Positions 1 to 28,511 of a DNA stretch of 33,165 nt are shown piece after piece. Position 1 is the stretch's first letter. The number at the start of each line of letters is the position of its first letter. A program made the translations under genes and the position numbers. A model generated the notes under the pieces. The model ran no database searches, had not been told where the DNA came from, and saw nothing but the letters and a program-made list of their open reading frames with translations. The stretch comes from Deltaproteobacteria bacterium (GTDB lineage: Bacteria; Myxococcota_A; UBA796; GCA-2862545), in assembly GCA_011376105.1 (NCBI GenBank), contig DRPG01000449.1, positions 1-33,165 on the forward strand, read 5' to 3'.

Positions 1-77
1 AGCACCGAGGCGGTGAGGGTGCCGACGAGGAGCCAGCGCTCTACACCCCCCCGGTCCTGCAGCGCGGCAGCCTGCAC
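1..77 (-). CDS. Possible TonB-like protein, N-terminus only (cut by window edge)
   Basis: Immediately after the ExbD stop, a GTG opens MQAAALQDRGGVERWLLVGTLTASVL (short cytoplasmic segment then hydrophobic start); position after exbB-exbD fits TonB. Too short to be certain. Confidence 0.4.
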   Translation of the reverse strand, partial: MQAAALQDRGGVERWLLVGTLTASV

Positions 78-79
78 AG

Positions 80-562
80 CTAGCCTCCCTCGTTGGGGGC
101 CGGGGGCAAGATCCCCCGACCCTCTCCCCGCGTGGCTGGATCGCTCGGGACCATCTGGGACTTGTCGATGTTGATCGCGAACTTGACCACACCTTCGCTC
201 TTGACCAGATCCAGCAGCCACACGACGCGGCCATGGGCCACCGCCTTGTCGGCCGCGATCAGGCAGATCACGTCGTCGTTGCTGGCCTTGGCGGAGCGGA
301 TCCGAGCCCGGAGATCCAAGGGGGTGATCGACTCGCCGTCGAGCAGCAGCTCGCCATCGGGCAGCAGGGTCAGCCCCAGGCTGGTGGCCTCGGTGCCCTC
401 TCCGGAGGCGGCCTCGGGCAGGTTCACCTTGATCGACGACTGCACGATCGTGGTGGCGGTCACCATGAAGATGATCAGCACCACCAGGATGATATCCACG
501 AACGGGGTGATGTTGATGTCGGCGATCAGATCGTCGTCTTCGCCGCCGAGCTTACTTCCCAT
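80..562 (-). CDS. exbD: ExbD/TolR family biopolymer transport protein
   Basis: MGSKLGGEDDDLIADINITPFVDIILVVLIIFMVTA: canonical ExbD/TolR N-terminus with TM Asp (NITPFVD); follows ExbB/TolQ gene. Confidence 0.92.
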   Translation of the reverse strand: MGSKLGGEDDDLIADINITPFVDIILVVLIIFMVTATTIVQSSIKVNLPEAASGEGTEATSLGLTLLPDGELLLDGESITPLDLRARIRSAKASNDDVICLIAADKAVAHGRVVWLLDLVKSEGVVKFAINIDKSQMVPSDPATRGEGRGILPPAPNEGG

Positions 563-1214
563 GGGCTGGCGCCGGATCGTGTTCGGTGGGGTCCTCGGTG
601 TCGATGCAGGCGAGGACGAGGTTTGCGAGGCTCTCGGTGCGGGACTGTCGTGCCCGAACGAAGCGGATCAGGCTGTTGTAGAGCACCACCGCGGGGATGG
701 CGACCATCAGGCCCACCGCTGTGGCCACCAGGGCCTCGGAGATCCCAGCCATGACCGCCTCAGAGGCCTCGGTTGTGTTCACAGCGAGATCGTGGAACGC
801 CTTGATGATCCCGAGCACCGTGCCGAACAGCCCGACGAAGGGCGCGTTGCTGCCGACGGTGGCGATCACCGACAGGCCCCGCTCCATACGCACCTTCTCG
901 GCGGTGATCGTGCTCGCCATGGCCTTCTCGGCGGCCTTGCTGCCTCCGTGGGGCGCCAGCTGCAGCCCCGAGGTCAGCACCCGGGCCTGGTAGCCCTTGA
1001 GCTTGTCGATCTGATCCCGGAAGTGCTCGGAGCGCCCACCGTCGAGGTACTCGTCGAAGGCTGTCTGCAGACCCCGGCGATCAGTCGCGTCGCGCACGAA
1101 GTAGAGGGCGCGCTCGAAGCTGATAGCCACGACGAGCACACTCATGAACACGAGGAGCCAGAGCACCCAGTCCGCCCCCAACAGAGCAAACGCCAACATC
1201 CCATCTTGGAGCAA
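552..1214 (-). CDS. exbB: MotA/TolQ/ExbB proton channel family protein
   Basis: SVIATVGSNAPFVGLFGTVLGIIKAFHDLA...EALVATAVGLMVAIPAVVLYN, hallmark ExbB/TolQ segments; 11-bp overlap with exbD. Confidence 0.93.
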   Translation of the reverse strand: MLQDGMLAFALLGADWVLWLLVFMSVLVVAISFERALYFVRDATDRRGLQTAFDEYLDGGRSEHFRDQIDKLKGYQARVLTSGLQLAPHGGSKAAEKAMASTITAEKVRMERGLSVIATVGSNAPFVGLFGTVLGIIKAFHDLAVNTTEASEAVMAGISEALVATAVGLMVAIPAVVLYNSLIRFVRARQSRTESLANLVLACIDTEDPTEHDPAPAHGK

Positions 1215-1301
1215 GCCGCCTCCCCACCGGTCAGGAGGTGTTCTAGCCTACCCACACCCCCACAGGGGGCAACGGATCGTCGCAGGGAGCGGAGGGGAGG
1301 T

Positions 1302-1377
1302 TGGAGGCGCCACCCGGATTCGAACCGGGGAATGGAGGTTTTGCAAACCTCTCCCTTGACCACTTGGGTATGGCGCC
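1302..1377 (-). tRNA. tRNA-Cys (GCA), CCA encoded
   Basis: Minus strand GGCGCCATACCCAAGTGGTCAAGGGAGAGGTTTGCAAAACCTCCATTCCCCGGTTCGAATCCGGGTGGCGCCTCCA; loop TTGCAAA gives GCA anticodon, U73 discriminator, paired 7-bp acceptor stem. Confidence 0.96.
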
Positions 1378-1446
1378 AGCCGATCGGGACTGTATCGAGC
1401 TACGACGGGTCGTCAAGGGTCTGGATGATCGGGGAGGGCAGGGGGG

Positions 1447-2196
1447 GTGCTGTCGTTGGTGGTGATCGCGAGGAACGAGGGGGATCGGCTGGCGCGCTGC
1501 CTGCGCTCGGTCCCCTGGGCGTCGCAGGCGCTGGTGGTGGTGGACACCTCGACCACCGACGACACCGCCGAGATCGCCCTTCGAGAGGGGGCCCGGGTGA
1601 TCCGGGCGGGCTGGCCGGGGCACGTCGCGCAGAAGAACCGAGCCCTGGCGGAGGCGAGCACCCCCTGGATCTTGTCCCTGGACGCCGACGAGTGGCTGAC
1701 GCCCGAAGCGGGCGCGTCGGTGCAGCGGGCGCTGGTGGATCCCGGCGACGCGGTCGGGTTCTCCCTGCCCCGGTGCTCGCGGTGGCTGGGGCGCCCGCTG
1801 CGGCACGGCCGGTGGTACCCCGATCGCAAGGTGAGGGTGGCCCGGCGGGGCCGGGCCCGCTGGGTCGGCGACGATCCCCACGATCGGATGGAGGTCGATG
1901 GGCGGGTCCGGCCTCTGCAGGGAGACATCGGCCACCAGCCCTACCGCACGATCTGGGAGCACCTGTCGACGATCGACCGCTACACCCAGATCCACGCAGC
2001 GTCGATGCACCAGCGGGGAGCTCGTAGCCATCGATGGGATCCTCCGCTGCATGCAGCGCTTCATTTCGTAGACGCGATGCTGTTGAAGAGCGCATGGCGG
2101 GACGGCGTCGACGGAGCCGCGGTGGCTCTGCTCGGGGCGGTCTACTCCGGGCTCAAGTGGCGCAGGCTGCGGCAGCTGGGGCGAAGCGCGCCGTGA
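1447..2196 (+). CDS. Glycosyltransferase family 2 (LPS core-type, WaaE/KdtX-like)
   Basis: MLSLVVIARNEGDRLARCLRSVPWASQALVVVDTSTTDDTAEIA...WILSLDADEWLTPE: GT-A fold with DADE motif. Confidence 0.88.
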   Translation: MLSLVVIARNEGDRLARCLRSVPWASQALVVVDTSTTDDTAEIALREGARVIRAGWPGHVAQKNRALAEASTPWILSLDADEWLTPEAGASVQRALVDPGDAVGFSLPRCSRWLGRPLRHGRWYPDRKVRVARRGRARWVGDDPHDRMEVDGRVRPLQGDIGHQPYRTIWEHLSTIDRYTQIHAASMHQRGARSHRWDPPLHAALHFVDAMLLKSAWRDGVDGAAVALLGAVYSGLKWRRLRQLGRSAP

Positions 2197-3212
2197 GGAT
2201 CGGCCTGGTCGTCGATCGCGTGGGGCCGGGCTCGGGCACCGCGGGGGTCGCTCACGCCCTGATCGTCCACCTGCTGGCCCGGGGTCACGAGGTGGCGGTG
2301 CGGTGCCGGGGGGGCGCCGCGCTCCCCGAGGGGGTGGCGCTCCTCCCGGAGGAGGCACAGGGCTGGCTGGTGGTGGGCCTCGATCGGGTGGCCGGGTGTG
2401 CGGTGGTGCGCGCGTCGGGGGGGGTCCACCGGGCCTGGTCACGAGCGGGCGCGATCACGCTGTGGAGGTGGATGAGAGCGCTGGGGCCCGATCAGATCGC
2501 TGAGTCGCGCAGGGAGGCTGTGGCCTACCACAGCGCGCGGATCGTGATCTGCAACTCGCTGCGGGCGGCCGGTGAGGTCGTCGCCTGGCACCGGCTGCCC
2601 CCCGGGGTGGTGAGGATCGTGCGCAACGGCGTGGATCTACAGCGGTTTCGACCCGACGGGCGGGCCCGGGTGGCTGCCCGGGCCCGCCTGGGGGTGCCCG
2701 CCCCGGGTCGGGTCGCCCTGTTCCTGGCCCATGGCTGGTTTCGCAAGGGCCTAAGCGCCGCCCTCGCCGGGTTTGAGGCCGCCGCGGGGCCGGAGGATCG
2801 GCTGGTGGTGGCCGGCCGGGACGCCCACCGGCACCGCTGGCTGCGCCCCGCCGCCCGGCTCGGGGCTCGGCTGGTGGTGGTGGACCCCGGGGATCCGGTG
2901 CCCCTGCTCGCCGCCGCCGACGTCTTGATTCACCCCACTCGCTATGACGCCTCCGCCAACGTGGTGCTCGAGGCGATGGCGGCCGGGGTGCCCCCGGTGA
3001 CCACCCTGTGCGACGGCGCCGCCGAGATCGTCCCTGATCGTGGCCTGGTCGTCGGAGACCCGCGAGATGTCGCTGGAATCGCGGCTGCGGTCCGTTACGC
3101 CTGGAGGACACCGGGCCTGGCCCGGCGCTGTCGTGTCGCCGCTGAGGCCTGGCCCACTTCTCGCATGGTGGGTGAGGTGGAGACGATCCTGGAGGAGATC
3201 CAAGATGGATGA
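2193..3212 (+). CDS. Glycosyltransferase family 4 (GT-B, WaaG-like)
   Basis: GTG at 2193 overlaps the upstream TGA (GTGA); MRIGLVVDRVGPGSGTAGVAHALIVHLLARGHEV...HPTRYDASANVVLEAMAAGVPPVTT typical GT4. Track ORF start 2034 is upstream of the likely start. Confidence 0.86.
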   Translation: MRIGLVVDRVGPGSGTAGVAHALIVHLLARGHEVAVRCRGGAALPEGVALLPEEAQGWLVVGLDRVAGCAVVRASGGVHRAWSRAGAITLWRWMRALGPDQIAESRREAVAYHSARIVICNSLRAAGEVVAWHRLPPGVVRIVRNGVDLQRFRPDGRARVAARARLGVPAPGRVALFLAHGWFRKGLSAALAGFEAAAGPEDRLVVAGRDAHRHRWLRPAARLGARLVVVDPGDPVPLLAAADVLIHPTRYDASANVVLEAMAAGVPPVTTLCDGAAEIVPDRGLVVGDPRDVAGIAAAVRYAWRTPGLARRCRVAAEAWPTSRMVGEVETILEEIQDG

Positions 3213-6200
3213 GCGATCCACTGGGCCGAGCCCCCTCGAGACGGGCGGGGAGCCTCCGGGGGTAGCCACCGGCCGGATCCGGGCCATGGGGTGCCTCAAG
3301 GGGCTGGCGGGCATGTCGATGGTGGGGAGCGTGGTCCTCGCTGTGGTGGCTGTGCTCTCGCTGGTGGTGCTGATCGGCGGCTACCAGTACTTCGTGGTGC
3401 TGAACCCCGGTCCCCACCTCGATCGGGATCATGTCCGCTCGATCATCGCCCAGGAGTCCCCGGTCTACTACAACGACGGGATCACCCGGGTGGGGGTTTT
3501 CTTCGAGGAAGAGCACCGCCAGTTCGTACCCTACGAGGAGCTCCCTGAGGCCTATGTGATGTCGATCGTGGCCGCGGAGGACTCCCGGTTCTGGCGCCAC
3601 TGGGGCCTCGATCCCAAAGGGATCCTGCGCGCCATGCGCGACAACCTCGTGGCCGGCGGGGTGGTGGCCGGCGGGAGCACACTCACGCAGCAGACAGCGA
3701 AAAACCTGTATTATCGCCCAGATCGCACCCTGAGGTCGAAGGGGGTCGAGCTCCTCAACGCGCTGCGGCTGGAGGCGCACTATGACAAGAGCGAGATCCT
3801 CGAGTTCTATGTCAACCAGTTCCACGTCTCGGGCAACGGGCGGGGTCTCGGGATCGCCGCGCGCCACTTCTTCAACAAGGAGGTGGACGATCTCACCGTC
3901 GCCGAGTGTGCGTTCCTCGCGGGGCTGGTGAAGGGACCTTCATACTACGATCCCTTCCTAGGCAACGAGGAGCGCAGCGCGCGCTCCGTCCAGCGCGCCC
4001 ACGAGCGCACCCGCTATGTCCTGGGGCGGATCTCCGGCCAGCGCCCCGAGGATCTCGTCCGTCCCCTCCAGGGAGCCGACGATCGGGAGGCCTACCAGGA
4101 GCGCCTGGTCGCCGCCACGGCGCTGGAGGCCGAGGCCACCCGGCTGCTGACCGAGGGCTTCGAGCTGGACTTCGAGCGGGGCTCATTCCGGTTCGCCAGC
4201 TCTGCGGTGCTCGACGAGGTCGCCCGGAGGCTGGACGAGCCCCCGTTCGACAAGATCCTCGGCGACGCCGGGATCGAGAGCGCAGAGACAGCGGGGCTGC
4301 ACGTGGTCACCACCCTGGATCCAGACGCCCAGCGCGAGGCGACCTGGGCCCTGTGGCACCACCTGACCGAGGTCGGCACCTGGATGGAGGGCCTCGGTCC
4401 CGAGGACTTCGTGCTCGATGGCCACCGGGGGCCCAGGTTCGATCCGGACTTCCCTCCACGGCGCCACGAGTTCCGCGTCGCACGGGTGGCGGAGCACGAG
4501 GGCGACGCGGGGCGTCGCACCGTGCGCCTCGATCTGGGCGGGCACCTGTGCATCGTCGATCGGACCGCGGTGGTCCGGGCGGCGGTGGCCAGCTGGCGAG
4601 GTCAGAAGCAGGATCACCGCGCCAAGGCCCCCACCAAGGAGGTCGACGCGTTCATCAACGCCATCTCCGACGGGGCGATCGTGCTGGCGTCGGTGCGGGA
4701 GCTACGCGACGAGGTCGCCTACTGCGATCTCGAGGTCCGCCCCGAGCTCCAGGGGGCGGTCTCGGTGCTCCAGGACGGGCAGATCCGGGCGATGGTGGGG
4801 GGCAACGACAACCGGAACTTCAACCGGGCCACCGCCTTGAGGCAGTTTGGCTCGACCTGGAAGCCGCTGATCTACCACGCAGCGCTCCAGCTCGGCTGGT
4901 CCCCCGACGACGCGATGGACAACGAGCGCAACGTGTTTCCGTTCTCGACCACGTTCTACTACCCCCGACCCGATCACAGCCCCGCGGCCCGGGTGTCGAT
5001 GGCCTGGGCGGGGGTGAGATCCGAGAACCTCGCCTCGATCTGGCTGCTATACCACCTCACCGATCGGCTGGACGGCGAGCAGATCCGCTCCCTGGCCCAG
5101 TCCCTCGATCTGGCCCGTCGGCCCGACGAGGACATCCCGGCCTACCGGACCCGGATCCAGAAGATCGGGGTGCTGCCCACACCGGATCGGGTGGAGGAGG
5201 GGCTGTTCCTCCAGTCCCGGCAGGAGATCCTGTCGGGGATCGAGGACTCGGATCATCCCGAGGATCAGGTCGCGTTGCAGTCCCTGCTGTTTGGGTGGGG
5301 CTACTCGGGGGAGCGCAACCGGGTCTCGCGGGAGGGGGCGGCGACCCGGGCCTGGAAGCAGCGCGCGCTGGACAACAACTGGCGCACGCTGCACGGCCGG
5401 TTCCTCGAGGGGGAGCGCTCGGGCTGCCGCTTCCAGTACGGTGAGCTGGTCCGCGCCCTGGAGGCACGCGAGCTCCCCGACGCCGAGCTGACCCGGGATC
5501 TGTCGGTGTGGCTGGACGGTGACGTGATCCGGGTGGCCTGCGGGGCCATGCCGGAGGGCTACGTCCGCCCCGACGCGGCGTTCATCGCGAGCCTGCCGGG
5601 GGCCGATCCAGGGGCCGATCCCGGCGCCCCGGAGGCTGGGGAGCCTGCGCTGGCCCTGCCCCCAAGGGCGCCCTCGCCCTCGGCTGAGCGACGTCGCCGG
5701 CTGCTCCAGGGCCTGTTTGGCCCGGGCGATGACGCCGACGATCCCTCCCAGCCGTCCCCGCGGGGGATCCGCCGGGCCATCCGCCGGGGGCCGCAGGTGG
5801 CGCCGGTCGACGACGTCCTGGTCGACGATCGGATCCACCTGGGCACGCTCGAGGCCCTCGACGGGGCCCTGGATCGCCGCAGGATGGCGTGGGAGCTCCA
5901 GGACGATCGGCCCGATCTATACGATCCGGAGATCCTGTACTGGCACCAGGACTTCCGGGTGTTGCTGGCGATGCGGTACATCAACCGCCTGGCGGAGCAG
6001 TACGGCGTGCAGACCGAGATCCGGGAGGTGCTGTCGATGCCCCTCGGCGCGTCGGAGATCACGCTGGAGGAGGCGACGAGCATGTACACCGGCCTGGTCT
6101 CGGGCCAGGCCTGGGAGTTCCCCGGGCTCTCCCGCGGGGAGACGATCGAGAAGATCCAGACGTCGACCCTGCTCATCCAAGAGATCCGGGACGTCGATGG

Positions 6201-6864
6201 GCGCGTGCTGTACCGGGCGATCCCCACCCCCACTCAGGTCGCTGAGCGCCCGGTGGGGGAGATGACGGTGGACATCCTGCGCAACGTGGTCCTCCATGGC
6301 ACCGGCCGCAGGGCGAAGACCCGGCTGACCTCGGGGGGGCACCCGCTGCCGGTGGGGGGCAAGACCGGCACCACCAATGACTTCAAGAACGCCGCCTTCC
6401 TCGGCTATGCGCCGGTGGCCGACGGCGGGGGCTACTCGGTCGAGGGGGGCTTTGTGATCGGCACATACGTGGGCTACGATGACAACCGATCGATGTCCCG
6501 GGGGCGGATCCGGCTCGCGGGGGCGTCCGGCGCCCTGCCCGCGTGGATGGGCACGATCCAGGGCCTGGCCGACGCTGGGCTGCTCGGCTCCCCGCCGGCG
6601 TCCGCGCCCTCGGAGGGGGAGCCCTGGCCCCTGCTGGTGGGTAGCGGCATGGCGCGCACCTTCGTGGACGCCTCCACCGGGCTGCCGACCCAGGGGGAGG
6701 AGAGCGGGGCCATGACCCTGGTGACCAAGTCCCTGGTGGAGCAGCGCCCGGAGGTTGAGTTCGAGCCCCTGAGGCGCCCGCACCGGATCGCACCGGGCAC
6801 CGAGGAGGCCATGATCGAGGGGGCCGCCCAGCCGAGACGAGCGCCCCGGGGGGCCGGGGACTGA
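3205..6864 (+). CDS. Class A penicillin-binding protein (GT51 transglycosylase plus transpeptidase) with large insertion
   Basis: GT51: EDSRFWRHWGLDPKGILRAMRDNLVAGGVVAGGSTLTQQTAKNL; transpeptidase SxxK in FGSTWKPLIY, SxN in SENLAS, KTG in GGKTGTTNDFKNAAFLGY. ATG at 3205 (MDERSTGPSP...). Confidence 0.93.
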   Translation: MDERSTGPSPLETGGEPPGVATGRIRAMGCLKGLAGMSMVGSVVLAVVAVLSLVVLIGGYQYFVVLNPGPHLDRDHVRSIIAQESPVYYNDGITRVGVFFEEEHRQFVPYEELPEAYVMSIVAAEDSRFWRHWGLDPKGILRAMRDNLVAGGVVAGGSTLTQQTAKNLYYRPDRTLRSKGVELLNALRLEAHYDKSEILEFYVNQFHVSGNGRGLGIAARHFFNKEVDDLTVAECAFLAGLVKGPSYYDPFLGNEERSARSVQRAHERTRYVLGRISGQRPEDLVRPLQGADDREAYQERLVAATALEAEATRLLTEGFELDFERGSFRFASSAVLDEVARRLDEPPFDKILGDAGIESAETAGLHVVTTLDPDAQREATWALWHHLTEVGTWMEGLGPEDFVLDGHRGPRFDPDFPPRRHEFRVARVAEHEGDAGRRTVRLDLGGHLCIVDRTAVVRAAVASWRGQKQDHRAKAPTKEVDAFINAISDGAIVLASVRELRDEVAYCDLEVRPELQGAVSVLQDGQIRAMVGGNDNRNFNRATALRQFGSTWKPLIYHAALQLGWSPDDAMDNERNVFPFSTTFYYPRPDHSPAARVSMAWAGVRSENLASIWLLYHLTDRLDGEQIRSLAQSLDLARRPDEDIPAYRTRIQKIGVLPTPDRVEEGLFLQSRQEILSGIEDSDHPEDQVALQSLLFGWGYSGERNRVSREGAATRAWKQRALDNNWRTLHGRFLEGERSGCRFQYGELVRALEARELPDAELTRDLSVWLDGDVIRVACGAMPEGYVRPDAAFIASLPGADPGADPGAPEAGEPALALPPRAPSPSAERRRRLLQGLFGPGDDADDPSQPSPRGIRRAIRRGPQVAPVDDVLVDDRIHLGTLEALDGALDRRRMAWELQDDRPDLYDPEILYWHQDFRVLLAMRYINRLAEQYGVQTEIREVLSMPLGASEITLEEATSMYTGLVSGQAWEFPGLSRGETIEKIQTSTLLIQEIRDVDGRVLYRAIPTPTQVAERPVGEMTVDILRNVVLHGTGRRAKTRLTSGGHPLPVGGKTGTTNDFKNAAFLGYAPVADGGGYSVEGGFVIGTYVGYDDNRSMSRGRIRLAGASGALPAWMGTIQGLADAGLLGSPPASAPSEGEPWPLLVGSGMARTFVDASTGLPTQGEESGAMTLVTKSLVEQRPEVEFEPLRRPHRIAPGTEEAMIEGAAQPRRAPRGAGD

Positions 6865-6893
6865 GCACGGTATCGTCGCGGTGGAGGTGTCGG

Positions 6894-7136
6894 GTGGAGC
6901 CGTTGATCGTGGGGGGGCTGACGGGGATCACTGCGGTGGTGGGGGTGGCCTTCTGGCAGCTGATGGTCCGCCCCAACGCGTTGCTGGCGCTGTGGTCCGA
7001 TCCCTCCGTCCCCGCAGAGCCCTGGTTCGAGCACCACCCGGGCGCGCTCCAGGGTCTGCGCTGGGCCCTGGGGATCGTCTTGTTCCTCTCCGGCTTCCTC
7101 ACCGGCCACACCCTCACGTTCCTGCTCCAGACGTAG
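6894..7136 (+). CDS. Small membrane protein, two predicted TM segments, unknown function
   Basis: MEPLIVGGLTGITAVVGVAFWQLMV...ALGIVLFLSGFLTGHTLTFLLQT; GTG start just downstream of the PBP gene. Confidence 0.55.
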   Translation: MEPLIVGGLTGITAVVGVAFWQLMVRPNALLALWSDPSVPAEPWFEHHPGALQGLRWALGIVLFLSGFLTGHTLTFLLQT

Positions 7137-7159
7137 AGGGGGGCCGAGCCCTGGCGCTC

Positions 7160-7176
7160 GCGCCCTCACAGGGCGC
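7160..7176. terminator. Short perfect hairpin (GCGCCCT-CAC-AGGGCGC), possible terminator
   Basis: 7-bp perfect stem with 3-nt loop 24 bp after the stop of the small membrane protein; no T-tract, so weak evidence. Confidence 0.3.
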
Positions 7177-7361
7177 ACCCCAGAGCGCCTCCTGGTCCGC
7201 TGAGCGCGCCCGGTCGCCCCGCGCACAGACCGGCCACCGGGCCCACGGTGGCCCACTCCTGTCGAGATCAGGGGCCGAGGACTTCGTCTGGTGGAGCCCT
7301 GGTGGGTCGCCCCTGGCCGGGGCGCTGTCCCCCTCTAGAGCGCCGCCTCCGCCACCTCCCG

Positions 7362-7405
7362 GATCGATCAGATCGTCCCTGGATCGCCAAGATCATCCCC
7401 GGATC
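7362..7405. repeat. Intergenic cluster of six GATC sites in 44 bp
   Basis: GATC at 7362, 7366, 7371, 7382, 7391, 7402 in ggatcgatcagatcgtccctggatcgccaagatcatccccggatcg. Confidence 0.9.
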
Positions 7406-7424
7406 GTCTCTGGGAGGGGGAGGT

Positions 7425-7501
7425 TGGTGGCTAGGGGCGGACTCGAACCGCCGACAACACGGGTATGAACCGTGCGCTCTAACCAACTGAGCTACCTAGC
7501 C
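7425..7501 (-). tRNA. Elongator tRNA-Met (CAT), CCA encoded
   Basis: Minus strand GGCTAGGTAGCTCAGTTGGTTAGAGCGCACGGTTCATACCCGTGTTGTCGGCGGTTCGAGTCCGCCCCTAGCCACCA; loop TTCATAC; fully paired G1-C72 and no GGG/CCC anticodon stem, so not initiator. Confidence 0.94.
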
Positions 7502-7582
7502 ATACAGTGGCAAGCTAACCAACCCCACTGATCCTGTCTCCCCGTTTCGTGCGGAGGGGCTCGAGGCGGCGGGGGCGGCCCG

Positions 7583-8164
7583 CTATCGCACGATCCTGCC
7601 CCAGCGCTCCAGGGCGGCACGGAACGCGTCGGGATCGTCGAAGTCTCCAGCGATGGCCTCGTCGGCGACCTCGACCTCGGTGGCCTGCGCCAGGATCGTG
7701 CGCAGCCCCGCCGGGGCCCCGCCGCCCACGACCCGTCGCAGCGCGGACGATCCCAGCAGGACGGGGTGGCCCCGCTGGCCGAGGTGGGTGGGGACAGCCG
7801 GGGGGCCCGCGGCCAGCAGCGCGGCCAGGGTCGTGGGCGAGGGGGGCAGCACATCCACCGGGGTGACCAGGCATGTGTGCTCGATCCCCCAGCGCTGCAC
7901 CGCCAGCCTCAGGCTGTCGATCGGGCCGGTCGAGGCCCAGGCGGGGTTGAGCACGACGGGGGTGTCCCCCAGCACCAGGCGGTGGCGCTCGGCGTGCGCA
8001 CCCAGCACGACCCCGATCCGGTCGCAGGCGGGGGCCATCCGCTGGAGGTGCAGGCGCAGGAGCGGGACACCGGAGATCTCGAGAAGCCCCTTCGGGCTGC
8101 CCATCCGGCGGGAACCGCCCGCAGAGAGGATCACGCCCCACGTCGCCGAGGTTAGCGGATCCAT
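7583..8164 (-). CDS. MobA/MocA-like nucleotidyltransferase
   Basis: WGVILSAGGSRRMGSPKGLLEISGVPLLRLHLQRM: NTP-transferase signature (LAAGxSxRMGxxK). Confidence 0.85.
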   Translation of the reverse strand: MDPLTSATWGVILSAGGSRRMGSPKGLLEISGVPLLRLHLQRMAPACDRIGVVLGAHAERHRLVLGDTPVVLNPAWASTGPIDSLRLAVQRWGIEHTCLVTPVDVLPPSPTTLAALLAAGPPAVPTHLGQRGHPVLLGSSALRRVVGGGAPAGLRTILAQATEVEVADEAIAGDFDDPDAFRAALERWGRIVR

Positions 8165-8188
8165 GAGCAGGTCCAGCAGAGGAGAGGC

Positions 8189-8899
8189 ATGGATCGTGCG
8201 AAGGCCTCGTTCTTGGGTCGAGCAGCGCTGTTATCACACCTGCCGCCTCCGCTGCTCTCCCGAGCCGTCCAGCGGACGGCGCCGGTGCGGGTGCGCCGCC
8301 GCCGGGAGCTGTGGCGGGTCGGCGATCCAGCGGAGCACCTGTACTTTGTCCGCTCAGGTGTCGTGCGGGTGGGCATGGAGATCGGTCAGGGGCACGCGCT
8401 CACCCTGAGGTTTCATGGCAAGGGAGACGTCTGTGGGGAGGTCGGAGCCCTGGAGGCCGCCCTGGGGACCCCCGCGGCGCGCCACACCGACGCGGTGGCC
8501 CACGAGGAGCTGGTGGTCTACGCCCTCCCCATCGAGGAGCTCCAGCTCCTGCTCGAGGGCTTCCCCGGGGTGGTCGCAGAGCTCGCGGGCCTGGTCTCTA
8601 CCCGGCGCCGCGAGGTGGAGCTCCGCCTCGGGGGCTTGCCCTTCAGCCCCGTCCCGTGCCGGGTGGCCTCAGCCCTGCTCCAGCTGGTCGAGCCCTTCGG
8701 GGTCCGTGACTCCAGGGGGATCATCATCAACCTGAGGTTGACCCACCGGGAGCTCGCCGGCCTGGTGGGCTCGACGCGGGAGACCGTCAGCGCAATACTC
8801 TCGGAGCTGCGCAGGGCAGGGGTGCTCCAGATCGAAGGCAAGCGGGTCGTGTTGCTGGACACCGACGCGCTGCAGGCCCGGGCCGAGCCCCCTGGCTGA
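8189..8899 (+). CDS. Crp/Fnr family transcriptional regulator
   Basis: cNMP-binding-like RRRRELWRVGDPAEHLYFVRSGVVRVG...; C-terminal HTH LTHRELAGLVGSTRETVSAILSELRRAGVLQIEGKRVVLLD. Confidence 0.92.
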   Translation: MDRAKASFLGRAALLSHLPPPLLSRAVQRTAPVRVRRRRELWRVGDPAEHLYFVRSGVVRVGMEIGQGHALTLRFHGKGDVCGEVGALEAALGTPAARHTDAVAHEELVVYALPIEELQLLLEGFPGVVAELAGLVSTRRREVELRLGGLPFSPVPCRVASALLQLVEPFGVRDSRGIIINLRLTHRELAGLVGSTRETVSAILSELRRAGVLQIEGKRVVLLDTDALQARAEPPG

Positions 8900-8973
8900 G
8901 GATGAGGGCGCGTCGCGGGAGGGGTGCCCCTGGCGTATAGTGCCACTCTCGTCCATCCGCCCACCAAGGCTCC

Positions 8974-9717
8974 ATGACCTTCACCTCACCCCTGCGCATA
9001 TCCTCACCCCTGCGCGTGTTCTGGTTGTCCTGCCTGGCGGCGAGCCTGCCGGCGCCTGCCCAGGCTGGCTCGCTTGGCCTGGGGCTGGCGTTCGTTCAGG
9101 ATCTTCCTGATCCAATCTCCACCGACACCCGCCTCGGTCTCGGGCTGAGCCTCCAGCTGCCTGTGCGGCTCGATCTCACCGAGCACACCTCCCTGCGGAT
9201 CGGAGGTCGCCTCGACTACGCAGGGGGGGGCGGAGAGCGCAACGGCTTCTGGTGTCGTGAGCTCGACGTCATCTCCTGGGACGTGATCGCTGACGAGCGG
9301 GCCGGGGTCCACCCCAGGTGCGGGTGGATGCTCTCGGGGGGGCTGACCGTCGGGCCCGAGATCAGGCTGCCTGTCTCCGGGCCGGTGCAGCCCTACGTGG
9401 CGGGGGGGCTGGGGCTCACAGCCATCGGCAACTTCCACAACATCCACATCCCCGAGCTGCTCGATCCACAGCGAAACAACCTCAGCCCCGATGGCCTGAG
9501 CTTCAACATCGATCCCTTCAGCCTCAAGGCCTCCTGGCTGACGGATCTGGCCCTCGGCGCCCACCTCGGAGAGCGCTGGTACGCAGAGGCAGGCTACTCC
9601 TCCGCCTGGGCCGGGCGGGCCGAGCTGAAGAAGTCCACCGCCGACCTCGAGGTCGACCGCGAGCCCTATGGCTGGAACGCGCTGCGTCTCGCCGGGGGGC
9701 TGAGGTTCCCGCTCTGA
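8974..9717 (+). CDS. Outer-membrane beta-barrel-like secreted protein
   Basis: Signal peptide FWLSCLAASLPAPAQA; alternating strands and C-terminal ...NALRLAGGLRFPL ending near an aromatic as in OM barrels. Confidence 0.6.
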   Translation: MTFTSPLRISSPLRVFWLSCLAASLPAPAQAGSLGLGLAFVQDLPDPISTDTRLGLGLSLQLPVRLDLTEHTSLRIGGRLDYAGGGGERNGFWCRELDVISWDVIADERAGVHPRCGWMLSGGLTVGPEIRLPVSGPVQPYVAGGLGLTAIGNFHNIHIPELLDPQRNNLSPDGLSFNIDPFSLKASWLTDLALGAHLGERWYAEAGYSSAWAGRAELKKSTADLEVDREPYGWNALRLAGGLRFPL

Positions 9718-9784
9718 TCCGCTCGGGTTGTCGCAGGCCGGGCCTGCCTGAGCCGGTTAAAGACGGTGCCCAGGCGAGGGCTCG

Positions 9785-10303
9785 ATGAAGCTGTATCGTG
9801 CGAAGATCCCAGTCATCGCAAAGGAAATCGTCGACAAGCTGGCCCTCGATGGGGACGTCGAGATCGAGCCCTCCCGGCGCGAAGAGGCCGAGAAAGATCT
9901 CGTCGCGATCATGGAGGAGTATCGGCGCCGCGACATGGAGCTGCGCGAGCGGGTCCGGGAGTACATGTCGACCCGGAGGCTGCCGTACTCCGAGTTTGGG
10001 CGCACCCGAAAGCGCATGGCCGAGGAGATGGATCACCCCATGGGGGAAGACGTCGAGCGCTTCCTTACCCGCCAGTTCATCGAAAACATGCTGATCTCCC
10101 CCAACGTAGAGGAGGTCTACGAGGAAGACGCGGTCATCCGGCGTAAGATGCTGGAGGTGCTCGAGGCTCACGATGTCGACGAGCGCGAGATCCGTGAGGA
10201 GGCCATGACCAAGATCAAGAACGTGCGCGAGGGCACGGTCGACTACGAGATCGCGCTACAGAACGCGGTCAAGGCGGTGAAGAAGCGACGGGGCCTGATC
10301 TGA
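9785..10303 (+). CDS. DUF507 family protein
   Basis: MKLYRAKIPVIAKEIVDKLALDGDVEIEPSRREEAEKDLVAIMEEYRRRD... typical DUF507 N-terminus; two similar halves possible. Confidence 0.8.
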   Translation: MKLYRAKIPVIAKEIVDKLALDGDVEIEPSRREEAEKDLVAIMEEYRRRDMELRERVREYMSTRRLPYSEFGRTRKRMAEEMDHPMGEDVERFLTRQFIENMLISPNVEEVYEEDAVIRRKMLEVLEAHDVDEREIREEAMTKIKNVREGTVDYEIALQNAVKAVKKRRGLI

Positions 10304-10971
10304 TCGCCTGGGCCCTAGCTTCGATCCTCGGGTGTGCCTCCACACGCTCCCCCGAGGGCCCTAGTGTCCCCGATCCCGAGGCTCGGGAGCCCCCGAGCCC
10401 AGCGCAGGCCCCCACCCTTCAGCGCTCCGCTCCCCTCGTGACCTCGGGGCCCGTCCCGGTGGTGCTGGCGTTCAGCAACCTCAACCCGCTATATCAGGGC
10501 TACTTCTCCACCGAGGCGTGGGTGGCGGAGCTGTCGTCGGCGCTGGGGGGCTGCTTCACCGAGAGCGTCGAGGTGGTGATCTCCTACAGCGACGAGACCC
10601 GGATCGGCCGGATCCTGATCCAGACCCCGATCAGCGCGCTGGCGTGCAGCCCGGTGCCCGGGCCCGAGGGCGTGGATCTCTCCCCGCTGGTGCCGGTGGG
10701 CCAGGCGCTGGCACGCTACCGCGACGCTGTTGCGGCGGCGAGGGACGTGCGGGTGGCGAGCTTCCGGGTGGGGGTGCGGCTGGTGCGGGGGGTCGAGCTC
10801 TGTGATCTGTACGTGGGGGGGCAGTTTCCCCCCGATGGCACCACCTTCTCCCCCTGCCTGGGGCTGAGGGGCAACGAGATCTGCCTCGGCGATCGGCACG
10901 AGGCCCTCACCTCCCTGCCCTGGCCCCAGGGAGAGCACCGGGAGATCCTCTCGGCCTGCCTGGGCGGCTAG
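10300..10971 (+). CDS. Putative lipoprotein, probable CTG start
   Basis: Track starts at GTG 10438, but the frame is open upstream and reads LIAWALASILGCASTRSPEGPSVPDPEAREPPSPAQAPTLQRSAPLVTSGPVPVV: lipobox SILGC. CTG at 10300 overlaps the DUF507 stop (CTGA). Confidence 0.6.
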   Translation: MIAWALASILGCASTRSPEGPSVPDPEAREPPSPAQAPTLQRSAPLVTSGPVPVVLAFSNLNPLYQGYFSTEAWVAELSSALGGCFTESVEVVISYSDETRIGRILIQTPISALACSPVPGPEGVDLSPLVPVGQALARYRDAVAAARDVRVASFRVGVRLVRGVELCDLYVGGQFPPDGTTFSPCLGLRGNEICLGDRHEALTSLPWPQGEHREILSACLGG

Positions 10972-10975
10972 ATCG

Positions 10976-12967
10976 GTGCTGGAGCTGCTGCTCGAGGCCG
11001 TGTACGCCAGGCCCGCCGAGCCAGGTCCCCGCCTGGTGCTGGCCGACTGGCTGCAGCAGCGGGGCGATCCCCTCGGGGAGCTGATCCAGCTCGAGCACCA
11101 AGGCTCCGATCCGACCAGCGTCCGCCTCCTGTATGCACGACAAGTCCGCAGGATCCTCGGGGATCTGCTCGGTGGGGTCCGGCCCCTGCGGTGCTGGCTC
11201 GGGTTCCTGCACGAGGCGACAGATCTCGGCGAGGTCTCGATCGACAGCCCGATCTGGGGCACGGTCCAGCACGTCCAGACCCGTCGCCCGGAGCTGGTCG
11301 TCCGCCTCGCCGGGCGCGCGCTGCGCTCGGTCCACCTCGGCTCCGGGGCGCTGCCCCAGCTGCTGGTCTGTGAGGCCCCCCTGGCCCTAGAGCGGATCTG
11401 GCCCCTGGAGTTGGATCAGGTGCCCTGGCTGCCCCCCGCCCCCCGCGAGGGACTGAGCCGGCTCACCCACCTGTCCCTGCGCCTCGCCGACGCCGACCTC
11501 CTGCGCCATCGGCCCCTGACCCCCTCCGGGACCGACACCCTGAGGCAGAGCGTCGAGGTGTTGCTGCCTCTGCTGCCCGCCCTCGAGATCCTCCGGCTCG
11601 AGGCGCCGGTGGATCCAGCGTGGGGCTGGAGCGCGCTGTGGCGCGCTCACCCCTCCCTGCGGCGGGTGGAGGGGTGGGGGGGGAGCTGGCAGCGCGAGCC
11701 AGCCCCGTTTCGGGCCACCCTGCCTGTGGTGCCCCGCTCGCCCCGGTGCGCGATGGAGGATCTCATCGAGGTGGGCAGCACCCACGAAGGCTACCTCCTG
11801 CTGGAGCGCCTCGGGGATGGGGTGAGCCACCAGGGCGGGTGGCTCGCCTCGGATCCAGATGATCAGCCCGTCGTCCTGTGGTTCGATCGAGGGCGCTCTC
11901 CCCCGGACTGCGAGGGGCTGCTGTCCGGAGCTGAGGTCCCGCTGCCGGGGACGGAGGGTCAGTTCAGGCCCCTCCGGGCGTGGGTGCTCCCCCCCGGGGT
12001 GCCCCCCGGGCCGGCCCCCTGGCCCCCGGACGAGGTCGCTGAGGTGCAGCGCTTGCTGCGCTCCGTCGAGCGCGCTCTGCCTCGCGATCACTTCCTCGGG
12101 GGCGACGCGCTGGAGCACCTGGTGCGGCTGGCGGATGGCTCCCTCGCCCTGCTCCGGCCCCCCCTGAGCAGCCGCCCGCCGGGCTCCCTCGAGCTCCGGC
12201 TGGGCCGTCACGTGACTGCGGTGCATCCCTGGGCCGGGTACAGCTGCCGGGGGCCGATCCGCAGCTGCAACGAAGACAGCTTCTGGCTGGATCCCCGGGG
12301 GATCTGGGCGGTAGCAGACGGCATGGGCGGGCACTCGATGGCGGAGCCCGAGGCGTGGGCGGTGGCGCAGGCGCTGTGTGTGCCGGGCCCGGCTCAGGAG
12401 CGTCTCACCGTGGCCTGGCGGGAGCTGGTGGCGGCTGAGCAGGCCCACCCGACGGGGGCGGGGGCCACAGCAGCGCGGCTGGTGATCGAGGGCTCCACCG
12501 CTCACCTGGCCTGGATCGGGGACGTCCGGATCTACCTGATCCGGGGTGAGGAGATCGTCGCTCAGACCCTGGAGCACACGCTGGCCCGGCACCTGGTGGA
12601 GGTCGGGCGGATCCAGCCCCGGGAGGCCCTCGATCTCCCCCACCGCAACATCATCACCCGCGCCGTGATGCCCGGGGAGGAGCCCCAGCTCGAGGAAGCC
12701 GTCGTGCCCCTCGAGCCCGGAGATCGCCTCCTGGTGGTGACGAGTGGGGTCTGGGTGGCGCTCGAGCCTGCGATCCTGCTCGCCCTGGTCCAGGAGGCCT
12801 CAGATCCCGCGGAGGCGGTCTGGCGGGTGCTGTCCGAAGCCAACCGGGTGGGGGGAGACAGCAACGCGACCGCGGTGCTGGTGGTGTTCGAGCGACCGGC
12901 TCAGGGGCCCTCGCTCTTGGTAGGAGCCCCCGACGGGGGAGCGCCTGAGGGAGGCGCGGGGGTGTAG
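10976..12967 (+). CDS. Multi-domain protein: TIGR02996-like N-terminus, LRR-like region, degenerate kinase-like segment, PP2C-like C-terminus
   Basis: MLELLLEAVYARPAEPGPRLVLADWLQQRGDPLGELIQLEH (TIGR02996-like); YLLLERLGDGVSHQGGWLASDPDDQPVVLWF (kinase N-lobe-like without Lys); RSCNEDSFWLDPRGIWAVADGMGGHSMAE...WIGDVRIYLIRG...GGDSNATAVLVVF (PP2C). Confidence 0.82.
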   Translation: MLELLLEAVYARPAEPGPRLVLADWLQQRGDPLGELIQLEHQGSDPTSVRLLYARQVRRILGDLLGGVRPLRCWLGFLHEATDLGEVSIDSPIWGTVQHVQTRRPELVVRLAGRALRSVHLGSGALPQLLVCEAPLALERIWPLELDQVPWLPPAPREGLSRLTHLSLRLADADLLRHRPLTPSGTDTLRQSVEVLLPLLPALEILRLEAPVDPAWGWSALWRAHPSLRRVEGWGGSWQREPAPFRATLPVVPRSPRCAMEDLIEVGSTHEGYLLLERLGDGVSHQGGWLASDPDDQPVVLWFDRGRSPPDCEGLLSGAEVPLPGTEGQFRPLRAWVLPPGVPPGPAPWPPDEVAEVQRLLRSVERALPRDHFLGGDALEHLVRLADGSLALLRPPLSSRPPGSLELRLGRHVTAVHPWAGYSCRGPIRSCNEDSFWLDPRGIWAVADGMGGHSMAEPEAWAVAQALCVPGPAQERLTVAWRELVAAEQAHPTGAGATAARLVIEGSTAHLAWIGDVRIYLIRGEEIVAQTLEHTLARHLVEVGRIQPREALDLPHRNIITRAVMPGEEPQLEEAVVPLEPGDRLLVVTSGVWVALEPAILLALVQEASDPAEAVWRVLSEANRVGGDSNATAVLVVFERPAQGPSLLVGAPDGGAPEGGAGV

Positions 12968-14088
12968 CTTGCGCCCTGCTCGGGGCCAAAGGGCTCCACC
13001 CCGATGAAGGTGCCGCCGGCGGCGGCGGTGTGCATCCTGGAGGTGAAGTCCCCCAGCAGGACGTTGCGCTTGAACTGCTTGCCCTCGAAGCCCCATAGCA
13101 CGAAGCTGCCATAGAAGGGCGTGGGGTTGTACCACTCGAAGTCGTGGCCGTAGACGCTGTCTATCCGCCAGCGCCGGCTTGTCGGGAGATCGACGAACGA
13201 CAGGGTCGGTGGCCGCACCTCGGTCTCGAAGGTCTCGGGCAGCTGCTCCTCGAAACGCTTGGCCCTGCGCAGCTCCCGCTCCCGGGCAGCCTCGGACAGC
13301 TCGTCCCAGGCGCGCTGGTAGAACACGCTGACCGGCTCAGCCTCGTGCTCGAGCATCAGCCAGCGGCCGTCTCGGTGCAGGCTGCCCCGGAGCGCTGGTG
13401 ACCAGCTACCCCGGGGGGTGCCGGTGGAGGCCTGGTACAGGGTGACCGTCTCGCCCGAGCCGATCACCAGCGCGTCGGCCTCGGGGGTGAACGTCAGCGT
13501 GTCGACGTCACCGAGCCAGGGAAACGGCTCGCTGACGCTCCCATCCGAGAGATCGATCCGGAAGGGCCTGGGTCGCCCCCCGATCTCTGCGGTCAGCAGC
13601 ACGCTGCCGGGATCGCTGTCCCGCTGTAGATCCGCGATAACACCCCACTGTGCGGGCACCGCCACGTCAAAGATCGTGGCCTGCTCGGTGTCGTACAGCG
13701 CGAGGTGTTGGGGGGGCCCGTCGGGCGCATCGGGGGGCGGGCCCACCGGCACCACCAGCCGGGTGGGGGAGACCCAGATCCCTGGCCCGGTGGGGGAGGG
13801 GCTCGGGACCACACGGGTGTCCTTGGTGGGGGACTCCGCGTCCATGATGTGATGGCTCATCCCAAGCTGAAAGTAGAGCTTTCGGCCATCGGGGGACCAG
13901 GCGTAGTCCTGGAAGTGGTTGTTGCCACAGGGACGGAACGCCGTCATGAAGTTGTGCTTTGAGGCGAGGTAGCGGATCTCCGCCTCGCTGCAGGGAGCGA
14001 AGGCCTCCCCGACGTTCTGTGACAAAGTCCCCACCGTCGGGTCGCCTGTGCACCCGAGCAGCGCCAGCAGCACTGAGGTCGCGATCAC
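12901..14088 (-). CDS. Putative lipoprotein, WD40/TolB-like propeller
   Basis: GTG at 14088: MIATSVLLALLGCTGDPTVG (lipobox LLGC); YAWSPDGRKLYFQLGM and repeated beta-propeller-like segments. The longer ORF (to 14916) is spurious antisense extension. Confidence 0.7.
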   Translation of the reverse strand: MIATSVLLALLGCTGDPTVGTLSQNVGEAFAPCSEAEIRYLASKHNFMTAFRPCGNNHFQDYAWSPDGRKLYFQLGMSHHIMDAESPTKDTRVVPSPSPTGPGIWVSPTRLVVPVGPPPDAPDGPPQHLALYDTEQATIFDVAVPAQWGVIADLQRDSDPGSVLLTAEIGGRPRPFRIDLSDGSVSEPFPWLGDVDTLTFTPEADALVIGSGETVTLYQASTGTPRGSWSPALRGSLHRDGRWLMLEHEAEPVSVFYQRAWDELSEAARERELRRAKRFEEQLPETFETEVRPPTLSFVDLPTSRRWRIDSVYGHDFEWYNPTPFYGSFVLWGFEGKQFKRNVLLGDFTSRMHTAAAGGTFIGVEPFGPEQGASYTPAPPSGAPPSGAPTKSEGP

Positions 14089-16064
14089 GATCTCCGCCTC
14101 CCGAAGGCCAGCAAGGCCGTCCCGAGGATCGACACCATCGACGCGCGAAGGTGCCCCGTCGACGCGCGAAGGTGCCCCGTCATGGAGCCACATGCACACC
14201 CACCGACCTCCCCGGGGGGCGCCGAGGCCGTGGTTGTGGAGGTCGCCGCGGTCTGATGGAGATCCGTCAGGCTGATGTGTTCGCCTGCGCTCCACAGCCC
14301 CACGTCGACCCGCTCTCCGTCCCCGGGGGGGGCGCCGAGGACCAGGCGATCGGGGGCCCAGGCATGGATCGGCAGCTGGATGCGCCTCCGCTGGGGCCCG
14401 ACCACCGCCCAGGCCCGGGTGCCGATCCCAAAGCCGGTGCCGATCACCTCCAGGACGCCATCGGCCAGCAGGAAGTGGTCGATCGAGGCCCGCTCGGACT
14501 CGTCGATCCACAGCGCCCGCGGGAACGCGGTGCCGTCGGCGGCCACCAGGGTCCACCAGCCTGGCCCCAGCTCCAGGACGTCGATCCATGCGCGCCCCTG
14601 GATCGAGGCCACCTGGTGCTCGGGTGCGCCGCCCTGGACCAGGGTGAGGATGCCGGTGTCCTCCCAGGGCAGCTGGATCCAGCCTGGAGCGGCGAGGGCG
14701 GAGGGCTCGGCCCAGCCCGAGCCGATGGAGACAGGCTGCAGCTGCAGCTGCAGCTGCAGCTGCTGCGTGCCGTCGAGCTCGATCTCGAGCGATCGGGGGG
14801 CATGGCCCGGGGCCTCGACGTGCAGCGTGGCTGAGCCGGAGCCCGTGATCCGGTGGAACCGCCCGGTCTCGGGATCGGTGTGGAAGATCGCGCTGGAGGT
14901 GGAGCCCTCCAGCCACAGACTGGCGTCCAGCGGCAGGCCGTCTGGATCGAGGACCGTGCCCGACAGCGAGGGGGGACGATCGATGAAGTCAAGGATCGCG
15001 TCGAGGTGCCACTCGACGATCTCGGGGATCCACTCGGGGGAGGGTGACTTGGGATCGGTGAGCTCCAGGGTGTAGTCCATCACCCCCTGTCTGCCATAGC
15101 TCCAGTCGTTGGTGTCGCCGTAGGTGATGTACCAGGCGGCGCCGTTGGTGAACCAGAACCCCGGCGCGTCGCACCTCGCTGCATAGTCGGCGGCCAGCGC
15201 CTCCATCAGCTCGGCCTCCGGCGCTGGATCGGTGGTGTGGTTCCACACCCAGCCCAGGTTGATCGCGCCGGAGTGCAGCGACAGCCCCGCCATGGGGCGG
15301 GTGTGCAGCGACAGCGCCCGGATCGCTTGGGTCTCCGGCTCGGAGAACGGCTCCGGCCCTCCAAAGGGCTCGTTGTAGGACCAGGCATAGTCGTAGTTGC
15401 GGTTCAGATCGACGACGTTGGCATTCAGCCGGTTGCCGATCTCCACCCCGTCGGGGTTGACGTAGGGCACGATCCAGATCGTGGAGCGATCGAGGATCCT
15501 GGAGATCCGCTCGTCGGCGCCGGGATCCGCCAGGGCGCTCGCCGTGGCCAGGGCGACCTCGAACGACGACCACTCGTCACCGTGGTGGGCACCGAGGATC
15601 CGGTAGGTGGGCGCGCCCTCCAGTGGATCGCGGCCCAGCACCAGCGCCTGGATCGGTCGACCCTGGACCGAGGTCCCGATCGTCACCAGGCTCGCCACAG
15701 CCGAGGCCTCGGCCAGCTCCGCCAGCAGCGCGTCGCCCTCGCCGGGGGAGTGGTAGCCGGGACCGGGCGGGCCCAGGCTGTGATCCGGCAGCACACGGTG
15801 CACCGGTCGCCCGGTCGCCTCGAGGCGCTGCAGCGCACCGTCAGGCAGCAAGACCCGGATCTCGACCACCTTGTCACGGACCCAGCGCCGGCCCTCCACC
15901 GGGATCGCCCCCCCCAGCTCTAGCGCGTCGATCCGGGCCCCGGCGGGGACCTCCACCCAGGCCTCCCCGACGGGGCTCTCGGGTGGGGATCCACCCCACG
16001 AGACCCGGGGCGACAGCAACAGGAGCAAAAACAGGCAGGCTCGTGGGCCGATCCTGCCCCACAG
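14085..16064 (-). CDS. M14 family zinc carboxypeptidase, CarboxypepD_reg-like domain, MYXO-CTERM-like tail; start uncertain
   Basis: Zn motif GAHHGDEWSSFE, His in LSLHSGAINLGW, Glu in MDYTLELTD; tail GGCACGS...SMVSILGTALLAFGRRRS. ORF extends to 16232 but that overlaps the divergent kinase; CTG at 16064 precedes LWGRIGPRACLFLLLLLSPRVSWG signal peptide. Confidence 0.85.
   Translation of the reverse strand: MWGRIGPRACLFLLLLLSPRVSWGGSPPESPVGEAWVEVPAGARIDALELGGAIPVEGRRWVRDKVVEIRVLLPDGALQRLEATGRPVHRVLPDHSLGPPGPGYHSPGEGDALLAELAEASAVASLVTIGTSVQGRPIQALVLGRDPLEGAPTYRILGAHHGDEWSSFEVALATASALADPGADERISRILDRSTIWIVPYVNPDGVEIGNRLNANVVDLNRNYDYAWSYNEPFGGPEPFSEPETQAIRALSLHTRPMAGLSLHSGAINLGWVWNHTTDPAPEAELMEALAADYAARCDAPGFWFTNGAAWYITYGDTNDWSYGRQGVMDYTLELTDPKSPSPEWIPEIVEWHLDAILDFIDRPPSLSGTVLDPDGLPLDASLWLEGSTSSAIFHTDPETGRFHRITGSGSATLHVEAPGHAPRSLEIELDGTQQLQLQLQLQPVSIGSGWAEPSALAAPGWIQLPWEDTGILTLVQGGAPEHQVASIQGRAWIDVLELGPGWWTLVAADGTAFPRALWIDESERASIDHFLLADGVLEVIGTGFGIGTRAWAVVGPQRRRIQLPIHAWAPDRLVLGAPPGDGERVDVGLWSAGEHISLTDLHQTAATSTTTASAPPGEVGGCACGSMTGHLRASTGHLRASMVSILGTALLAFGRRRS
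14138..14181. repeat. 21-bp perfect tandem duplication (2.1 copies)
   Basis: cgacgcgcgaaggtgccccgt at 14139-14159 and 14160-14180; encodes (TGHLRAS)x2 on minus strand. Confidence 0.97.
14735..14762. repeat. GCTGCA hexamer microsatellite, about 4.5 units
   Basis: gctgcagctgcagctgcagctgcagctg; encodes QLQLQLQLQ in the carboxypeptidase. Confidence 0.95.
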
Positions 16065-16116
16065 GGGGGGACGGTGTACCCGGGCGGTCGGGGTGGGGGT
16101 GATAGCATGCCGTCGG

Positions 16117-17532: not shown

Positions 17533-17570
17533 TCCCACCGGGGCTCGGCTGATCCCTGACCAGACCAGCC

Positions 17571-18125
17571 CTACTCGTGGATCGGCTGCATCCAGACCAT
17601 CGACGAGGTGAGGCCCAGCGAGGCCAGCGCCCGATCGTAGCGCTCCTCGATCGGGGTGTCGAACACGATGCCCGCGTCGAGATCGGTGAACAACCAGCCG
17701 CCTTGCTCGATCTCTCGATCCAGCTGACCCGAGGCCCAGCCCGCATAGCCGAGGCAGAGCATCATCGGAGCCTCGCCCTGGAGCAGCCGCAGCAACGCGT
17801 CGTGGGAGCGGGTGACCCCGAGGCCACCGGGGAGCAGCCAGCCCTCAGCGGCGTCGGACAGCCCGCCTCGGGTCAGGACGGTGCCCGAGTCGGTCTCCAC
17901 CGGCCCCCCCCAGACCACCGGCGTGTCCTGGTGGCGGGACAGATCGATCGGCTCTTCGAGGGCGAGGACCTCGGGCAGCCGGTGCTCCAGGGCACGGTTC
18001 ACCACCACCCCGATCGCTCCGTCTTCGGGATCGTGGTGGAACACCAGCACCACCGTTCGCTCGAAGAAGGGATCATGGAGCTGCGGGGACGCGATCAACA
18101 GGGTCGGGGAGAGGTGATCTGCCAC
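17571..18125 (-). CDS. YqgE/AlgH family (UPF0301) protein
   Basis: LSPTLLIASPQLHDPFFERTVVLVFHHDPEDGAIGVVVNRAL...VVWGGPVETDSGTVLT...LCLGYAGWASGQLDREI. Confidence 0.95.
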   Translation of the reverse strand: MADHLSPTLLIASPQLHDPFFERTVVLVFHHDPEDGAIGVVVNRALEHRLPEVLALEEPIDLSRHQDTPVVWGGPVETDSGTVLTRGGLSDAAEGWLLPGGLGVTRSHDALLRLLQGEAPMMLCLGYAGWASGQLDREIEQGGWLFTDLDAGIVFDTPIEERYDRALASLGLTSSMVWMQPIHE

Positions 18126-18239
18126 CCGTGGACTCTACCACGCTCCGGGATCCCCGAGGGCTGGCCTGGATCAGGGTGGGCCCGGCCAGCGCTGATCCTC
18201 CGGATCCCGCCCCCCGCGCTCAGGGCCCCGGTGGCTCGC

Positions 18240-19514: not shown

Positions 19515-19666
19515 GGTGCCCGCTCTGTTCCCTCTCTCCAGCACTATAGGCACGTCTTCTGGGGGGGTCAACGAACCCGCGCCACTCTGTGGGTGAGAAC
19601 GTCGAGAGCTACATCTAGCCGCAGGAACCGGGGTGGGCCGGACAGACTCGTGGGAGGTTGCGGTCG

Positions 19667-20725: not shown

Positions 20726-20792
20726 GCAGATCCGGGGCGCTGACGTGGCAAGCCCCGGGGAGCAGCAGCGGCGGCGGCCGGGGGGCGGCAGC

Positions 20793-20828
20793 GGCTTGGT
20801 GATCAGGCGCGGCTTGGTGATCAGGCGC
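20793..20828. repeat. 18-bp perfect tandem duplication spanning a stop codon
   Basis: ggcttggtgatcaggcgc at 20793-20810 and 20811-20828; second copy contains the stop (20821-20823) of the 1321-aa kinase. Confidence 0.96.
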
Positions 20829-24786: not shown

Positions 24787-24902
24787 CGACCTCCCGACCT
24801 CAGCGGGATCCTAACGGATGTGGGGCGTGCTTGTCTGCCGGGGGTGGGTCTCGGCGTCCGTCCGTCGGGGGAGGGATGGGCTATCGTGCCCCGAGTCCGT
24901 TG

Positions 24903-28434: not shown

Positions 28435-28511
28435 CAGGACTCCGGTGGGGGGGGCCGATCCGAGGCGGCCCCGGACGCGAGGGGGCCGCACGGACGCTGC
28501 TGCGGCGAGGG

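Follow-up and report, generated by a model that had tools for sequence, protein, structure and literature searches.

The window, by which we mean the whole stretch of 33,165 nucleotides analysed here, is contig C449 of a draft genome of 6.7 Mb in 766 contigs (80.7% complete), and its annotated features include an ORF for a class A PBP-like protein, a gene for a Ser/Thr kinase-cyclase-AAA-TPR protein and a gene for Lon protease (Table 1). The segment 5041-5999 sits between the transglycosylase and transpeptidase domains of the PBP-like ORF, and it was here that the sequence-only reading had seen the choice of the Asp codon depend on the next base, with GAT before C and GAC otherwise. The count in frame 1 is exact: before C there are 14 GAT and no GAC, while GAC occurs 17 times before A, G or T and GAT once before G (Fisher p = 3e-8). 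For the window as a whole, the predicted genes have 186 GAT and 19 GAC where C follows the Asp codon, 35 GAT and 295 GAC where another base follows it, and the Asn, His and Tyr codons followed by C end in T 21 times and in C 179 times. The exceptions that had been pointed out at about 1975, 9655 and 25697 are all real GACC words, the last of them starting two bases earlier.

Table 1. Features of the window that bear on the Asp codon switch and on GATC.
Feature	Position	Strand	Observation
Whole window	1..33165	.	GATC occurs 559 times (16.9 per kb), 6.2 times the roughly 90 predicted by base composition
Exception, GACC kept	1975..1978	+	real GACC word
Class A PBP-like ORF	3040..6864	+	transglycosylase PF00912 and weak, partial transpeptidase PF00905 match; Asp before C is GAT in 29/29
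Stretch of the finding	5041..5999	+	Asp before C is GAT in 14/14; other Asp is GAC in 17/18
Exception, GACC kept	9655..9658	+	real GACC word
Ser/Thr kinase-cyclase-AAA-TPR protein gene	20824..24786	-	Asp before C is GAT in 38/42; minus strand obeys the rule too
Exception, GACC kept	25695..25698	+	real GACC word
Lon protease gene	26050..28950	-	Asp before C is GAT in 20/21

Codon statistics for the genome were taken from 422 kb on about 35 readable contigs (approximately 6% of the genome) with heuristic gene calls. In this sample GAT makes up 88% of the Asp codons before C and 10% of the others (ln OR 4.11 ± 0.07), and the pattern persists outside the PBP gene on every readable contig sampled. 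The other NNY codons were examined for a similar T-before-C switch and show no general one, the pooled Asn, His and Tyr codons giving a ln OR of -0.48, so a general T-before-C bias was dropped. The difference between Asp and control ln OR is 4.59 here and at most 3.0 elsewhere, the value of 3.0 coming from a 10 kb sample. The GAT share before C is 0.83-0.91 for any base after the C and 0.69-0.91 by the base preceding the codon; tabulated by the following dinucleotide, it is 0.84-0.91 for every CN and at most 0.21 for all others. Genes vary little in this respect, apart from a few low outliers that may have been imported recently or read in a wrong frame. The near-binary cross-codon rule creating GATC that had been proposed is thus borne out, with the extension that it is a rule of the DNA and not of codons. 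The total density of GATC is 17.1 per kb, or about one in 58 bases, which is 6.3 times the expectation from base composition and 2.6 times that from dinucleotides, and every readable contig of the first sampled batch lies between 12.8 and 18.9 per kb.

The whole genome is shifted toward GATC where the genetic code allows it, and between genes as well. Synonymous sites of all three frames are pulled in this direction. A is the third base of 24% of the Gly and 23% of the Arg codons that stand before TC (GGA 0.236, CGA 0.228), compared with about 1-5% before other T-starting dinucleotides, while Ala and Val codons, for which an A-ending would not give GATC, show no such rise (GCA 0.039, GTA 0.011). 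The preference for a G-ending codon before Ile ATC, which had also been noted, holds as a count, G making up 82% of the G- and C-ending four-fold codons there; however, it makes up 70% before ATG too, so that static counts give the Ile contexts no more than a partial specificity for GATC, and it is the comparison of orthologues described below that separates the ATC from the ATG contexts. Intergenic DNA contains 14.9 GATC per kb and genes 17.5 per kb, and the excess over a dinucleotide model is alike in both (2.60 and 2.57, respectively), which shows that the effect is not translational. When codons were shuffled with all protein sequences and their codon usage preserved, GATC came first of the 256 tetramers (6293 vs 3584, 1.76 fold), and by z-score no tetramer was more depleted than its neighbours GACC (0.51) and CATC (0.59). 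GGTC, which a transition separates from GATC, is depleted more strongly than GCTC, which a transversion separates from it (A:G 3.26 vs A:C 2.09). The flanks of GATC are flat and all flanks share the enrichment, and GCGATCGC, at 13.2 per 100 kb, is not above the product of its flank frequencies; an extended HIP1-like motif was therefore dropped.

Relatives were compared in samples of 7-60 kb per genome, and of 183 kb for the nearest sampled relative, a congener (G001). At equal GC the congener has 8.7 GATC per kb vs 17.1 here, and other members of the family have 1.8-11.1 per kb. When whole-genome densities were compared through GATCN{0,30}GATC pairs, the genome came first among 379 from the phylum, with about 7,050 pairs per Mb, and the second had about 5,690. 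One contig of the congener aligns in order with part of the window, and differences between orthologues are given here in the direction from the congener to the genome under study. At conserved Asp codons followed by C there are 24 changes of C to T and 2 of T to C, compared with 2 and 9 in the His, Tyr and Asn control; at four-fold codons before ATC there are 24 changes of C to G and 2 of G to C, compared with 5 and 4 before ATG and 20 and 15 before other codons starting with A. Since the asymmetry is 24 to 2 for transitions and for transversions alike, both kinds of change run toward GATC. Polarisation with four outgroups is thin: 29 of the 48 sites were usable, of which 11 are non-GATC in all outgroups, 4 are GATC and 14 are mixed. 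These comparisons show a pressure by which words one base away from GATC become GATC, and which is strong, genome-wide and directional in one species and much weaker in its nearest sampled congener.

The pressure acts site by site, regardless of how far away the next GATC lies. Among 2,734 sites with Asp followed by C, the GATC share is flat at 0.84-0.90 from 4 to 160 bp from the nearest other GATC (0.90 at 4-10 bp and 0.84 at 80-160 bp), and 3,143 sites before ATC likewise show no dependence on this distance. In addition, the spacings of GATC are near geometric, with a CV of 0.98. This argues against selection for a sufficient number of repair signals, the benefit of which should fade with density, and selection for mismatch-repair coverage was dropped for lack of any spacing effect.

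GATC is the mark used by DNA methylation and mismatch repair of the E. coli type. A gene for a predicted Dam-family methylase on contig C693 matches TIGR00571 with 201 bits (cut-off 114.85) and aligns with E. coli Dam across the whole target-recognition segment. On contig C534 (G000:C534; L247:11565-12245) lies a gene for MutH, which passes the equivalog model NF003458 (256.7 vs 243 bits), falls just below the cut-off of TIGR02248 (219.3 vs 229.9) and matches E. coli MutH (1azo) over the full length with E = 2e-61, the catalytic DF..LG-ELK region being conserved; a search of the genome for the MutH/Sau3AI family gave this MutH as the sole match. Both contigs bear the GATC signature, which makes contamination unlikely. 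The MutL endonuclease motif DQHAX2EX4E is replaced in this genome and in three family members, while it is kept in three of the four genomes without Dam and MutH that were examined, the fourth also being without it. In G354 (93% complete), for which no MutH or Dam-family methylase is listed, MutL is without the DQHA motif and a positive GATC-specific effect is nevertheless seen. These sequence matches show genes for Dam, MutH and a motif-less MutL, which together make up the set predicted for methyl-directed mismatch repair as in E. coli. No gene for Vsr was found in the genome or in three relatives, and repair of the Vsr type was dropped.

However, the congener has orthologous Dam, MutH and motif-less MutL, yet a far smaller GATC effect, and in E. 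coli, which also has Dam and MutH, the context effect at Asp codons followed by C is absent (difference -0.09) and GATC is near expectation at 4.3 per kb. Thus, Dam and MutH are insufficient for the effect. Among the 379 genomes of the phylum, MutH is found in 129 and Dam above the cut-off in 215, with both together in many, and on inspection their presence does not explain the density of GATC. Furthermore, the codon shuffle places GATC at the top in all groups of the phylum that were sampled, also in genomes without detected Dam, which indicates that some of the background arises in another way. True MutH thus occurs in a phylum, probably Myxococcota, outside the gammaproteobacteria, and in the window's family it is accompanied by a motif-less MutL; it is to the gammaproteobacteria that MutH has been described as confined (PMC4390886); in the literature we found nothing specific on MutH outside the gammaproteobacteria or on a GATC codon effect.

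Among the possible explanations, we tentatively favour a drive toward Dam sites, recent in origin and acting on each site independently, that would be linked to Dam methylation and would most readily act as a bias of repair or conversion. Where the two strands differ at a site, the strand with the methylatable GATC would be kept as the template and the other strand corrected, and a further lineage-specific change beyond Dam and MutH would be required. Such a drive would be a site-autonomous relative of the mismatch-repair ratchet that Elhai proposed for the cyanobacterial HIP sequences, a model in which sites are expected to saturate at about one per kb (PMC4390886); the lack of saturation at 17 per kb argues against the ratchet as published. 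There are further points against biased repair: the bias of MutS for transition mismatches would not predict an equal 24 to 2 for the C:G to G:C changes, and nothing that we found explains the extreme level, given the set of orthologous repair genes in the congener. Natural selection on each site, in which every methylatable GATC would be slightly beneficial, for instance through a GATC-binding nucleoid or replication-control protein, epigenetic regulation or self-marking, is nearly as likely and is itself no more than a possibility. The equal asymmetry in transitions and transversions and the action in intergenic DNA are what selection at the level of the tetramer predicts, and in population-genetic terms it is almost indistinguishable from biased conversion. 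It would, however, need an effective advantage of several in 2Ns at each of well over 100,000 genic and intergenic sites, even at those 4-10 bp from another GATC; a benefit through mismatch-repair coverage should fade with density, and no fading is seen; and a uniform advantage at equilibrium would not give the unevenness between GGTC and GCTC (3.26 vs 2.09), although a recent onset could.

The remaining explanations are far less probable than biased repair or selection. A mutation hotspot, with GACC as the target of a cytosine methylase and GATC as the product of deamination, could account for GACC/GGTC being the most depleted neighbour, and one gene for a C5-methylase is present in the genome. 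We consider it very unlikely, since the C to G transversions that turn CATC into GATC are equally one-sided (24:2) and specific for GATC (5:4 before ATG), by which deamination as the sole cause is largely refuted, and since the congener and a further family member, both with weaker effects, have C5-methylase matches as well. An ordinary high-GC background, be it a preference for T before C or the usual standing of GATC as the commonest AT-containing palindrome, would fit with the first rank of GATC in the sampled groups of the phylum and with the 11-15 GATC per kb attained by other high-GC genomes. The next-highest densities are those of genus g105, with 14-15 per kb and no Dam or MutH, where all NNT codons rise before C (controls 1.4-2.0, difference about 0), so that the density there comes from T-ending codons of every kind being preferred before C and not from GATC itself. 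The present genome has negative controls and a large difference, and the congener has half the density at the same GC, so that such a background is very unlikely as the explanation. A translational codon-pair effect, in which the wobble reading of tRNA-Asp is swayed by the next base, was suggested by the fact that the first observation was phrased in Asp codons; the same enrichment in intergenic DNA, in the Gly and Arg frames before Ser and before Ile codons refutes any codon-pair or tRNA effect and leaves it with practically no probability.

The closest known system is HIP1 of the cyanobacteria (GCGATCGC and alternates; Elhai 2015, PMC4390886), in which a GATC-containing palindrome that is a methylase target is likewise grossly over-represented, a matching methylase is encoded, the level differs sharply between relatives and a ratchet of methyl-directed repair has been put forward. 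In the present genome GATC is such a palindromic word, grossly over-represented genome-wide, and the predicted Dam-family gene supplies the matching DNA methylase. In contrast to HIP1, it is not an extended GC-rich palindrome such as GCGATCGC but the bare tetramer, with no enrichment of GCGATCGC beyond its parts; the density is about 17 per kb instead of about 1 per kb, spacing brings no saturation and a real MutH is encoded. GATC itself is generally under-represented in the cyanobacterial groups A and B (Elhai, PMC4390886). The methyl-directed mismatch repair of E. coli shares with this genome the predicted Dam-family methylase, MutH equivalog and motif-less MutL, but not the enrichment, and the organism, by its relatives, is not a gammaproteobacterium.

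Restriction causes depletion of its site. Type II restriction-modification, too, shifts the genome-wide frequency of a four-base palindrome, but the expected sign is depletion with a cognate nuclease, whereas GATC is enriched in the window's species. Such avoidance is apparent in two other genomes, G013 (1.8 per kb) and G074 (2.6 per kb), in both of which the effect at Asp codons followed by C is negative. G013, a member of the family of the window's species, has two Dam-family matches and one MutH-family match, which suggests a GATC restriction system at some time. Strong avoidance of GATC was also seen in two unrelated MAGs, one of Nitrospirae and one alphaproteobacterial (0.3 and 0.6 per kb, respectively). 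GC-biased gene conversion is comparable in that it biases fixation in a way that imitates selection, at synonymous and intergenic sites alike, but what is favoured here is one particular palindrome, and changes toward A or T are among those favoured; we know of no case of palindrome-directed gene conversion.

The HIP sequences of the cyanobacteria raised the question why some genomes accumulate the target word of a methylase. In this lineage the case is cleaner: the word is a bare Dam site of four bases that is close to saturation, a congener with half its density serves as the control, and a predicted Dam/MutH/MutL set of the E. coli type is encoded. It makes biased repair and selection directly testable against each other, and shows that a signal of the kind usually taken for codon bias can arise at the level of the DNA. 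The MutH and motif-less MutL of the phylum would extend mismatch repair of the E. coli type well past its usual stated range. The fuller proposal, that a recently switched-on, Dam-linked biased conversion makes nearly every reachable site GATC and that this is the first such case with an E. coli-type Dam/MutH/MutL set outside the gammaproteobacteria, may hold, but is put forward still more cautiously than the drive itself.

A further deviation in tetramer usage concerns AAT/ATT, which is nearly absent from the 422 kb of this genome. AATC, ATTC, AATG and ATTG stand at 0.08-0.13 of the dinucleotide expectation here and at 0.3-0.5 in the congener, and the Ile codon ATT makes up about 0.2% of the ATY codons, compared with 5-30% for other NNT codons.
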